This document shows, piece after piece, positions 16,729-21,068 of a DNA stretch of 64,000 bases. The DNA comes from Pseudomonadota bacterium (lineage in GTDB: Bacteria > Pseudomonadota > Gammaproteobacteria > Burkholderiales > Rhodocyclaceae). Positions within the stretch are counted from its first letter, which is position 1. Every line of letters starts with the position of its first letter. The notes beneath the pieces were generated by a model. The model was given only the letters and a program-made list of their open reading frames with translations, did not search any database and was not told the origin of the DNA. The DNA lies in assembly GCA_018240785.1 (NCBI GenBank), contig JAFEFC010000002.1:32120-96119 (forward strand), read 5' to 3'. The translations under genes were made by a program, and so were the position numbers.

Positions 16729-18018
<1,290 letters not shown>

Positions 18019-18231: not shown

Positions 18232-18807
18232 ATGGAACAGGCCCAATCGACGAATTCGACCGAGCAGCGACGCAGGCTGCTGAAGGGAGCCTTGGGGGCC
18301 TCCACGGTAATGGGCATGGGATACAGCAGCGCTGCCCTGGCCTCATTCCAGTGCATCACGAGCACGACACCGTATCCCTCCAGTGGCCCCGGCTTCAAGA
18401 AGTCGATCAACACCACTTCCAACTGGGCATGGTTGAAGTTGCAGGTTTTCAGCACCAACAAGAGCAATTCGACCAATAGCTGGAAGGCCGTCAAGATTCC
18501 AAACGGGACCGACCCTACGGTGGCAAACGGGGACGCCGGCACGAGTGTCTATTTCTTCGACAATTTGGCCACAACACCGCTTCTCTATGCTGCCGGGAGC
18601 AGGTCGCTGCCGAGCGGCATAAAGGTCAGCTCCGCGGAATCAGGTAATTACGTTTACGTTATCGTTTATTTCAAGGTTGACGGCTCCATCGCCGGTTTCT
18701 TCCCAACCTATACGCCGATAACGGGCTCGGACTATCCCGCTCAAGGATCGTGCCTCACTTCACTGAACCCCAATCTCGTTCAGACGAATATTTTCTATGG
18801 CGGCTGA
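18232..18807 (+). CDS. Exported protein with twin-arginine-type leader, first gene of an HPr-rel-A cassette
   Basis: Protein of 191 residues that I do not recognise functionally. The leader contains RRRLLKGALG followed by a small-residue hydrophobic stretch ending AALA at about residue 38, which resembles a Tat signal. The mature part is rich in Ser, Thr, Asn, Gly and Tyr with beta-strand character (YVYVIVYFKVDGS) and only a few Cys (one just after the leader). Start: ATG at 18232 preceded by GGGGAA; the frame is open further upstream to 18136. Its G+C is visibly lower than its neighbours. The end overlaps the PqqD-like gene by 11 bp, so it belongs to that operon and may be the substrate of the cassette (inference). 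Confidence 0.72.
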   Translation: MEQAQSTNSTEQRRRLLKGALGASTVMGMGYSSAALASFQCITSTTPYPSSGPGFKKSINTTSNWAWLKLQVFSTNKSNSTNSWKAVKIPNGTDPTVANGDAGTSVYFFDNLATTPLLYAAGSRSLPSGIKVSSAESGNYVYVIVYFKVDGSIAGFFPTYTPITGSDYPAQGSCLTSLNPNLVQTNIFYGG

Positions 18808-19099
18808 ACCAAGGGCGTTGCCGCCCGCAGAAATCTCTCCGCATCAATGGCTGCAACAATACTGCCCGGTCCTCGACGGGCAGTTTCTTTTTCTGGATCC
18901 GATTTCGTGGCGCACCTTCCAGTTGTCCGAAGGCGCCGTGACGGTGCTGCAGGAGACTGCGACTGCCATCGAGTTGGGCCGTTTCAGCGACTTTCTGGTG
19001 GAAGTGCAGGAAGCTGGGGGCTGGCCACCGGAACTCGAGCCGCTTGCATGGTCGTTGAATTCGTTGATCAGATCCGACGCGTTCCGGCCTGCTGAATGA
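18797..19099 (+). CDS. PqqD-like protein of the HPr-rel-A system
   Basis: Small 100-residue protein resembling the PqqD fold used as a peptide chaperone by RiPP-modifying enzymes: a first strand pair around DGQFLFLDPISWRTFQLSEGA, then a helical domain (AVTVLQETATAIELGRFSDFLVEV). In databases such proteins next to an HprK-like kinase are named HPr-rel-A system PqqD family proteins. It overlaps the preceding gene by 11 bp and the kinase gene by 4 bp (ATGA), so the three are translationally coupled. Its peptide partner is unknown; no radical-SAM enzyme is nearby. Confidence 0.72.
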   Translation: MAAEPRALPPAEISPHQWLQQYCPVLDGQFLFLDPISWRTFQLSEGAVTVLQETATAIELGRFSDFLVEVQEAGGWPPELEPLAWSLNSLIRSDAFRPAE

Positions 19100-19965
19100 T
19101 CGCGACGCCATACCGCTTGCTCGACGTCGGTGCGGCCAGGCTGGCCGTGGCATCGCCGATCGAAGGCTTTCATGCGCACCTCGACCGGGTCTATCCCCAC
19201 CACGAGCCGATCGCCGATCCGGTTTTCGCCGATGCCCGCGTTGCGCTGCTGCCCGGCTCGAGATGGCGTGTGCGCGGTCGCCAGGTCGTGCTGTGGGCCG
19301 ATGGCCAGCGTCCGTTCGAGCCCTACCCGTACGACTGCGCGCTGCCGCTGTTCGAATGGGGCAGCAATTACCTGCTTTCCCAGCGCCTGAACGCCTACCT
19401 TCTGCTGCACGCCGGCGTGGTCGCGCGCGGCGATCGCGCGCTGATCCTGCCGGCGGCACCCGGCTCGGGCAAGACCACGCTGACCTGCGCGCTGCATCTG
19501 GCCGGGTGGCGCTTCCTGTCGGACGAGTTCGGCGTCGTCGACATGGGCAGCGGGGAGCTGCTGCCCATGGTGCGACCGGCACCACTGAAGAATCGCTCTA
19601 TCGACGTCATCGGCAGCCGTCCGGGCGCCGTGCTCGGGCCATTGTTCCCTAAGACGCGCAAGGGCGACGTGTCGCACTTCGTGCCCGACCGCGACAGCTT
19701 CGTCGCCCGCCACCGCCGTGCGACGCCCGCGCTGGTGGTGTTCCCGCGCTTCCAGGCCGGCGCCGCGCTGCAATGCACGCCCGTGCATCGTGCGCAGGCG
19801 GCGATGCGGATCGGCCTGAACAGCTTCAACTATCAGGCACTGGGCCCGCTCGGCTTCCAGGCCGCGGTCGCGCTGGCGCGGCGCACGGCCGCCTTCGAGC
19901 TGGTCTACGGCGATCTCGACGACGCGATCGCCCACATCGAAACCCTGTTCGAGGGCGCGCCTTGA
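19096..19965 (+). CDS. HprK-related kinase A
   Basis: Protein of 289 residues related to the C-terminal P-loop domain of HPr kinase/phosphorylase. It has the Walker A PAAPGSGKTTLTCAL (about 119-133), then LSDEFGVVDM, equivalent to the metal-binding SDD region of HprK, and PLKNRSIDVI. The N-terminal half (HAHLDRVYPHHEPIADP) is family-specific. True HprK phosphorylates HPr Ser46 in sugar control; members of this family lie away from pts genes in conserved company with a PqqD-like protein and a nucleotidyltransferase, and their target is not known. Starts overlap the PqqD gene (ATGA) and the next gene (TTGA). Confidence 0.8.
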   Translation: MIATPYRLLDVGAARLAVASPIEGFHAHLDRVYPHHEPIADPVFADARVALLPGSRWRVRGRQVVLWADGQRPFEPYPYDCALPLFEWGSNYLLSQRLNAYLLLHAGVVARGDRALILPAAPGSGKTTLTCALHLAGWRFLSDEFGVVDMGSGELLPMVRPAPLKNRSIDVIGSRPGAVLGPLFPKTRKGDVSHFVPDRDSFVARHRRATPALVVFPRFQAGAALQCTPVHRAQAAMRIGLNSFNYQALGPLGFQAAVALARRTAAFELVYGDLDDAIAHIETLFEGAP

Positions 19966-21068
19966 GCAGCAACGGCCGGTCCGACATCGCACTGCTGATG
20001 CGCGGCGTGCGCGAGCCGCTCGACATCGACGAAGCACGCTGGGAGCGGCTGCTGCGCATCGCGCGCGCCAGCGGCCTGCATGCGCGACTGGCCGTCGCGA
20101 ACCTGGACAGGACGAACACGACCGACGTCGTGCGCCGCCATCTGCTGTCGTCGGCGCGCATCGCCGCCTATCGCGCACAGATGGTGCGTGCCGAGCTGTT
20201 CCACCTCGCACCGCTCGTCACCGACGACTTCCCGGTGATCGTGCTCAAGGGCGGCGCCTACATCCTGCAGGGGCGCGCGCTGGCAGAAGGGCGTTTCGTG
20301 TCCGACGTGGACCTGCTGGTGCCCAACGCGCACCTGCGCGCGATGGAAAGCCGCCTGCGGGCGGCGGGCTGGCAGCCGGAGAAGCTGGACCCTTACGACG
20401 AGCGCTATTACCGCGACTGGAGCCACGAGACGCCGCCGATGCGCTTTCCCGGCCACAGCCTGGAAGTGGATCTGCACCACGCGATCACGCCGGTGACCGG
20501 CTCGCTGGCCTTCGATCCGGCCAGCCTGTTCGCGCGCAGCGAACCGATACCCGGCACGCCCTTCCGCGTGCTGTGCGCCGAAGACCAGGTGCTGCACGCC
20601 TGCCTGCACTGCTTTCACGACGGCGAACTGGACCTGCGGGTGCGCGAAGTGGTCGACATCGACGGGCTGCTGCGGGCTTTCGGCGCGCGCGAAGGATTCT
20701 GGGACCGGCTGTTGGCGCGGGCCGCGGAACTGGCGCTGCAGCGCCCGCTCTGGTACGGACTGCATTTCGCGCGGACCTGGCTCGAATGCCCGGTGCCGTC
20801 GGAAGTGTGCAATGCGCTGCCGGCTCCGTCCGTCTTGAGCCGCACGCTGATGGACGCGCTCGTGCCGCTGGCGATGCTGCCACCGGATCCGGACTTTCCG
20901 CCGCCCATGCGGGCGCGGATTGCACGCACATTGATGCGCGCCCGCTATCACCTGCTGCGCATGCCGCTGCACCTGCTGGTGCCCCATCTGGCACGCAAGA
21001 CCCTGCGACGCCTCAAGGCAAGGCTGGATCGCAGGGCGGAAGCGCCGGCGGAAGACGGCACCCCCTGA
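19962..21068 (+). CDS. Nucleotidyltransferase-family protein of the HPr-rel-A cassette
   Basis: Protein of about 368 residues in the uncharacterised nucleotidyltransferase family (NTP_transf_5 type). The hallmark is VIVLKGGAYI followed by GRFVSDVDLLVP, where the SDVDLL acidic residues bind metal, and then RLRAAGW. Further conserved pieces are VDLHHAITPV and LCAEDQVLHACLHCFHDG. The TTG at 19962 overlaps the kinase stop; an ATG at 19998 is the alternative. It is the last gene of the operon and ends before a strong hairpin at 21082. Whether it adenylylates protein, peptide or sugar is unknown. Confidence 0.78.
   Translation: MSSNGRSDIALLMRGVREPLDIDEARWERLLRIARASGLHARLAVANLDRTNTTDVVRRHLLSSARIAAYRAQMVRAELFHLAPLVTDDFPVIVLKGGAYILQGRALAEGRFVSDVDLLVPNAHLRAMESRLRAAGWQPEKLDPYDERYYRDWSHETPPMRFPGHSLEVDLHHAITPVTGSLAFDPASLFARSEPIPGTPFRVLCAEDQVLHACLHCFHDGELDLRVREVVDIDGLLRAFGAREGFWDRLLARAAELALQRPLWYGLHFARTWLECPVPSEVCNALPAPSVLSRTLMDALVPLAMLPPDPDFPPPMRARIARTLMRARYHLLRMPLHLLVPHLARKTLRRLKARLDRRAEAPAEDGTP

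Follow-up and report, generated by a model that had tools for sequence, protein, structure and literature searches.

Phosphate-modified peptides of the class of ribosomally synthesised and post-translationally modified peptides (RiPPs) are known from several bacterial systems. The linear polyphosphorylated peptide (LPP) system of Bacillota, LppA/K/B/S/D/N, combines a RiPP recognition element (RRE), an HprK-like kinase, a nucleotidyltransferase (NTP-transferase), an SpI peptidase and an MsbA-like transporter, and its precursors of 35-200 amino acids (aa) have a conserved N-terminus and a variable C-terminus (PMC13381572). Within this cluster of RRE, HprK and NTP-transferase it is LppK that phosphorylates Ser3 of the core, and capsular polysaccharide loci are frequent neighbours (PMC13381572). 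In lasso peptides the kinases PadeK, ThcoK and SyanK phosphorylate the C-terminal serine (PMC9266682), and the hexoses carried on the phosphoserine of pseudomycoidin require PsmN, which possibly acts indirectly (PMC9266682, PMC8498205). Here we describe a four-gene locus, an HPr-rel-A cassette headed by a gene for a protein with a twin-arginine translocation (Tat) leader, in a 64,000-nucleotide stretch of contig JAFEFC010000002.1 from a Rhodocyclaceae genome (GCA_018240785.1); this whole stretch is called the window below.

The four genes lie on the + strand and are joined by overlaps of 11, 4 and 4 bp; the coordinates of the open reading frames (ORFs) agree with the initial annotation in this respect. 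The genes, and two segments of the first protein, are as follows.

18232..18807, + strand: precursor of 191 aa with a twin-arginine leader, taken to be what the cassette modifies (ATG start, ORF)
18268..18342, + strand: core of the leader, residues R13-A37 (RRRLLKGALGASTVMGMGYSSAALA), a likely Tat motif and signal-peptidase site, putative RRE-binding segment (class-B alignment)
18748..18768, + strand: C-terminal motif S173-C-L-T-S177-L-N, with S177 the favoured candidate for modification (class-B alignment)
18797..19099, + strand: PqqD-like protein of 100 aa, putative RRE (ATG start; position in the cassette and a weak profile match)
19096..19965, + strand: HprK-related kinase A (TIGR04352) of 289 aa, putative serine kinase (ATG start; 338.6 bits)
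19962..21068, + strand: NTP_transf_5 nucleotidyltransferase of 368 aa, which may act on the phosphorylated serine (TTG start; PF14907)

The TTG start of the last gene was picked from the 4-bp overlap, and its open frame extends further upstream. The last three genes are an HPr-rel-A cassette, which we take to consist of a kinase, a nucleotidyltransferase and a divergent PqqD-like protein; in the window the nucleotidyltransferase (PF14907) adjoins the kinase. By analogy with the systems above, the four genes would form one modification-and-export unit resembling those of phosphate-modified RiPPs, a reading to which we give a rough probability of 0.6. Such a unit probably phosphorylates a serine and perhaps adds a sugar before export, and is probably common across one large bacterial group.

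The leader gene and the cassette keep constant company, which a search with the precursor itself conceals. Among 101 genomes of the family, four matched the window precursor, the window's own included, and the three others have the same order of precursor, PqqD-like protein, HprK-related kinase and nucleotidyltransferase. An order-wide search with the window precursor family alone reached 2 of 399 genomes, the own one again included, and the other (G815) has PqqD-like, HprK and nucleotidyltransferase genes behind its precursor. This rarity is only apparent, because the mature part of the protein diverges quickly, and the survey was therefore restarted from the kinase. Of 398 genomes sampled across the phylum, 61 have a kinase above the TIGR04352 cut-off. 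The loci were drawn from 50 of the 60 non-own genomes above the cut-off, from 80 named records and from three loci found through the precursor; removal of 17 with identical kinase cores reduced 150 loci to 133 distinct ones. A gene was counted as upstream if its frame lay on the same strand and ended no more than 1600 nt ahead of the kinase frame's start and no more than 450 nt past it.

A hidden Markov model (HMM) of the leader finds an upstream gene on the same strand in 117 of the 133 loci, and a second pass adds L094, L141, L154 and L145 (the last by eye, E 1.5), which brings the count to 121/133, or to 118/130 once the three precursor-derived loci are set aside. Absence of the leader-bearing gene from most HPr-rel-A loci, which the initial annotation named as grounds for refutation, is thus not what the survey shows. 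Four more loci (L019, L124, L127 and L128) have a leader gene elsewhere in the locus, one genome has it elsewhere in the genome (L068, genome G214), and three loci (L100, L147 and L155) offer less than 600 nt of upstream sequence. Three frames found by the HMM were dropped as false or duplicate; among 13 matches outside the upstream interval, five look like precursors and eight like chance.

The leader HMM was seeded from the surveyed loci; its held-out test used seeds from L003-L076 only and was scored on 80 other loci. Here the upstream interval, which holds 856 of 10180 ORFs, received 22 of the 23 matches at E<1e-3 and 26 of the 29 at E<1e-2. A generic Tat-signal pattern, independent of these leaders, is positive in the upstream interval of 99/133 loci, compared with 12, 13 and 28 loci for three control intervals of the same length; in the rest of each strand, a longer sequence, 38 loci are positive. 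Co-occurrence was followed with a class-C precursor profile through 246 genomes of one alphaproteobacterial order, which share descent and are hence less than independent. The profile matches 50 of these genomes. In 48 the match is strong (E<=1.6e-12), and a kinase above the cut-off is present in every one of these, compared with 104 of the 246 overall. Among the 48 pairs, 36 lie within 700 nt, three within 4 kb, and nine, from one genus, are unlinked with both genes kept; the two weak matches break the pattern, one being unlinked and one having no kinase. The held-out HMM, the control intervals and this co-occurrence lead us to reject a chance association. As far as sequence can tell, the leader-bearing protein is a constant partner of the HPr-rel-A cassette, and the association is strong. 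Two precursor genes with similar leaders stand in each of the loci L113 (3892-4434 and 5151-5633), L127, L128 and L136.

The leader of the window precursor (MEQAQSTNSTEQRRRLLKGALGAS...AALAS) consists of a twin-arginine motif, an uncharged stretch and a cleavage site (RRRLL...ALA/S), and its removal leaves a protein of ~150 residues. TatC is encoded in the same genome (239.5 bits), so that the precursor has the sequence features of a Tat substrate and is probably one, export itself being predicted. The precursor belongs to no Pfam or NCBIfam family. No model of either collection covers the precursors as a group, apart from single weak matches, and searches of Pfam, NCBIfam and the PDB with them gave matches at chance level only. 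The comparison set comprises 123 precursors, the window's and 122 others, after a truncated frame (L029) and one frame of L136 had been left out of 124. Columns conserved in at least 90% of them are R13, R14 and C41 in window numbering, and little else beyond the leader is shared.

Alignments of four classes, A to D, comprise 20, 5, 9 and 26 rows chosen by hand, and identity is higher in the leader than in the mature part for 190/190, 10/10, 33/36 and 321/325 of their pairs, respectively. PhoX, a Tat substrate of the ordinary kind from related genomes, shows the reverse: its leader is the more alike in 117/351 pairs, and in 16/200 of those with mature identity <50%, counts that exclude three rows with misplaced leaders (117/435 and 16/262 with them). 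A leader conserved above its cargo is the pattern expected from a dedicated leader-binding partner. Redox enzyme maturation proteins (REMPs) are Tat proofreading chaperones of redox enzymes, and the PqqD-like protein might similarly bind the twin-arginine leader and time export. The kinase and nucleotidyltransferase would then act on this chaperone, or on the decision to export, and leave the exported protein unmodified. The conserved element is indeed the Tat-like leader itself, and RREs bind leaders. We nevertheless consider this unlikely, since the HprK-like kinases for which there is precedent modify the precursor (PMC13381572, PMC9266682), and a pure leader chaperone would have no need of shared serine motifs outside the leader.

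These motifs, which fit modification of the precursor, occupy two positions. The pattern CxxS[FLIVM] occurs in the last 40 residues of 45/123 precursors (shuffled sequences: mean 1.6, maximum 8), and C-x(1-4)-S-x(2-3)-S right behind the leader in 65/123 (shuffled: mean 18.2, maximum 30). Exactly one of the two is present in 110 of the 123 precursors and both in none. On a FastTree phylogeny of 121 kinases the two positions require 3 changes among 108 labelled rows; when the unlabelled rows are treated as a group of their own, 4 changes are needed for the C-terminal label and 9 for the other, compared with shuffled means of 36.6 and 40.6 and with 0 of 500 shuffles as low, a clustering to which shared descent contributes. 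In the five rows of class B, to which the window precursor belongs, the invariant residues include S38, S173, C174, T176, S177 and N179.

The size of the precursors bears on what the final product would be. If the leader protein were a strict RiPP precursor, a short modified fragment such as the C-terminal tail would be released as the active product, and both the paired precursor genes of the four loci named above and the variable core would suit this. The precursors, however, measure 89-270 residues from the twin arginine (RR), with a median of 176, class D has conserved blocks along its full length, and no gene for a leader peptidase or peptide exporter recurs in the loci, in which ABC-ATPase signatures appear in 6/133 and no convincing signal-peptidase box was seen, as judged by patterns only. 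We hold this to be the least probable of the alternatives, and favour a modification unit that treats the whole small protein as its core. The mature parts of class D share a domain with the pattern SPGYWKNHP..WP..LNA, for which no Pfam or NCBIfam model was found at E<=0.01.

A PqqD-like protein is found in 120/133 loci, and TIGR04353, the “HPr-rel-A system PqqD family peptide chaperone”, matches all four of the proteins scanned from this position in other loci. A profile of 25 proteins from the same position, with the window subfamily left out, finds among PDB entries the lasso-peptide RREs TfuB1 (6jx3, E 4.4e-7) and TbiB1 (E 0.053), which were solved with leader peptides. The window subfamily aligns locally with the TIGR04353-type relatives in hhalign (probability 31%, E 5e-4, 31 columns) and scores 22 bits against the family HMM, the training set of which held its close kin. 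An AlphaFold2 model (mean confidence, pLDDT, 82.6) has the strand-strand-helix-helix-helix order of an RRE; Foldseek found nothing significant with it (best E 1.1), and the four best entries were lasso RREs. PF05402 misses the window protein, while two other places in the genome exceed its cut-off (contigs C7 and C33, loci L002 and L001). The label “PqqD-like” of the initial annotation is therefore borne out through the relatives in the same position that match TIGR04353, while the window protein itself has no family match; its proposed role as presenter of the leader likewise draws on the homology of the family to lasso RREs. The comparisons suggest an RRE, with good evidence for the family and weak evidence for the window's own member.

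The two enzymes are more securely placed, and both earlier assignments, an HprK-related P-loop kinase and an SDVDLL nucleotidyltransferase, agree with the family models. The third gene scores 338.6 bits against TIGR04352 HprK_rel_A (cut-off 200). In an alignment of 22 kinases H105, the Walker A residues G123, G125, K126 and T128, D143-E144 and K189-G190 are invariant, and the best PDB matches of the kinase profile are HPr kinases (E 0.002). The catalytic set of the lasso kinases is given as His-Lys-Asp-Asp (PMC9266682). The fourth gene, which carries SDVDLL, scores 180.2 bits against PF14907 NTP_transf_5 (cut-off 31.2) and has homologues in 120/133 loci; it has no PDB relative at E<=1. A stricter nucleotidyltransferase pattern, found in 84/121, was too narrow and was not used.

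We propose the following course of events. The PqqD-like protein, as an RRE by homology, would hold the conserved leader, while a single conserved serine would be phosphorylated, and perhaps polyphosphorylated, by the HprK-like kinase. For the window precursor this may be Ser177 of SCLTSLN, with Ser173 and Ser38, just past the cleavage site, as alternatives; in other precursor classes it would lie near the C-terminus (CxxS[F/L]) or right behind the leader (C..S..S). The NTP_transf_5 enzyme would then move a sugar or a nucleotide onto the phosphate, as has been proposed for PsmN of pseudomycoidin, and the product would be exported by Tat and cleaved at ALA/S. The leader of the pathway would thus double as the Tat signal, and the core would be a whole small protein. 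The steps do not stand equally firm: that the leader protein is the substrate of the cassette we regard as highly likely, and phosphorylation of a serine in it as the probable reaction, whereas a nucleotidyltransferase acting on the serine-linked phosphate has a little less than an even chance and Ser177 as the site is a tentative choice. The chemistry is inferred by analogy.

Several observations weigh against this reading. Four loci have no precursor in the sequence covered, which is ~1.3 kb upstream in L028 and L073 and more in L053 and L074, and the held-out leader HMM has a low sensitivity across classes, with 26 of the 80 loci recovered. Neither serine motif occurs in 13/123 precursors; in this group L125 and L130 have ALASF at the C-terminus and L041 has AYTSI. 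The pattern behind the leader is met by chance in about 18 of 123 shuffled precursors. The patterns were also composed after the sequences had been viewed, and the motif partly guided the choice of rows for classes A, C and D, so that the counts over all 123 precursors and class B carry the argument. The kinase family of the window has D-E where D-D is described for the lasso kinases (PMC9266682), which implies that the last Asp may be Glu in HprK_rel_A. In the LPP host, deletion of lppN had no visible effect (PMC13381572). The PqqD-like protein of the window gave no Pfam or NCBIfam match at E<=1, TIGR04353 included. [YW]xxP occurs within 40 aa from the RR in 4/123 precursors and is absent from the window's leader, and leaders that lack the [Y/W]xxP bound by lasso and LPP RREs would need another mode of binding. 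Finally, the AlphaFold2 model of the precursor, made from a five-row alignment, is poor (pLDDT 48) and was not used.

The neighbourhoods raise the question of whether the cassette has another target. One or more genes like those of XrtA/PEP-CTERM exopolysaccharide loci stand in 51 of the 105 loci longer than 9 kb, taken as a raw rate; the neighbours were grouped by BLAST around representatives, nearly all of which exceed NCBIfam cut-offs, a partial PrsK falling just below. These genes would suit a leader protein that is merely a co-transcribed, secreted surface or matrix protein, with the cassette acting instead on some other target, for instance part of the exopolysaccharide machinery or a regulator resembling HPr. 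Such genes are missing, however, beside roughly half of the loci, that of the window among them, whereas the leader gene is upstream in 121/133; nine genomes keep both precursor and kinase though the two are apart; and among neighbouring ORFs of at least 180 aa, the next real gene group after the nucleotidyltransferase (120/133) reaches 31 loci. Another target is for these reasons improbable, about as much so as the proofreading chaperone. It is a reasonable conjecture that the system may act at the polysaccharide surface. We speculate further, and with clearly less confidence, that HPr-rel-A represents a Pseudomonadota-wide class of exported phosphoproteins or phosphoglycoproteins, in which one leader is read by both the RRE and the Tat translocon, modification is coupled to folded export, and a phosphate-linked sugar ties the protein to an XrtA-type exopolysaccharide; this wider picture is rather unlikely to hold in full.

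In the window itself, a Pfam scan of the ten genes flanking the cassette found a two-component pair, argininosuccinate lyase, glutaredoxin, PrmC, RF-1, glutamyl-tRNA reductase, a sodium:solute symporter, a sensor kinase and porphobilinogen deaminase; among these ten there is no XrtA-type exopolysaccharide gene and no peptidase or exporter gene. XrtA is present on another contig of the genome. Directly upstream of the cassette (16729-18018, + strand) lies a gene whose product joins a Ser/Thr protein kinase to a cyclic-nucleotide-binding domain, and a gene that resembles it by reading is also upstream in L037 and L038. The group that reaches 31/133 loci encodes an HtrA/MarP-type, trypsin-like serine protease (representative L090:7939-8721, - strand); in 23 loci it lies on the kinase strand, at a median of ~1.8 kb upstream, and may be a processing enzyme or a plain neighbour. 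Beside another HPr-rel-A locus, an XrtA-type amidotransferase (L072:3181-5220, - strand) also resembles lasso-peptide cyclases, at 238 bits (cut-off 525).

What emerges is a candidate substrate, with a named candidate residue, for a widespread and functionally unexplained cassette. If this is true, the logic of phosphate-modified RiPPs extends from peptides of Bacillota to whole Tat-exported proteins of Pseudomonadota, and phosphate-modification chemistry is tied to polysaccharide loci in both phyla. In the literature searched, which leaves most subscription journals outside, there was no match for a counterpart from Pseudomonadota in which the leaders are Tat-type and the substrates as large as proteins, and no paper naming HPr-rel-A, HprK_rel_A, TIGR04352, TIGR04353, PqqD_rel_X or NTP_transf_5; the same searches gave no paper on an “HprK-related kinase”, on RiPPs together with twin-arginine, precursor peptide and RRE, or on exosortase with HPr kinase. 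The initial annotation had spoken of a new kind of RiPP-like pathway. On one point this is too strong, as phosphate RiPPs with an RRE, an HprK-like kinase and an NTP-transferase are known in paeninodin, pseudomycoidin and LPP.

The comparison with these systems can be made point by point. With NCBIfam's HPr-rel-A system (TIGR04352, TIGR04353) the window shares a kinase above the cut-off, a gene in the PqqD position and NTP_transf_5; it differs in a precursor that falls, like the others, under no NCBIfam or Pfam model and in a PqqD-like protein below the detection of TIGR04353. Paeninodin and pseudomycoidin resemble it in their discrete PqqD-like RRE, an HprK-like kinase acting on a C-terminal serine and, for the hexose, a nucleotidyltransferase (PMC9266682, PMC8498205). 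We rejected filing the system as a lasso peptide, since neither a macrolactam cyclase nor a B2 peptidase was found by Pfam among the ten flanking genes, and its substrate is a protein rather than a peptide once the leader is removed. With LPP it shares an RRE, though weakly in the window, an HprK-like kinase, an NTP-transferase and a small precursor, and polysaccharide genes are frequent neighbours of both (51/105 of the longer HPr-rel-A loci). In contrast to LPP, HPr-rel-A is found in Pseudomonadota with a Tat-type leader where LPP has a YxxP leader, its loci have no recurrent gene for an SpI-like peptidase or MsbA-like exporter, as judged by Pfam among the ten genes flanking the window's cassette and by patterns only in the other loci, its serine motifs differ, and its cargo is protein-sized. 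Filing the system as LPP was rejected as well, for want of the YxxP leader, the SpI-like peptidase and the MsbA-like transporter. The two positions of known sites, behind the leader and at the C-terminus, are nonetheless mirrored by the two motif positions in HPr-rel-A precursors. The system of the window thus fails membership of LPP, yet by analogy it works like LPP.

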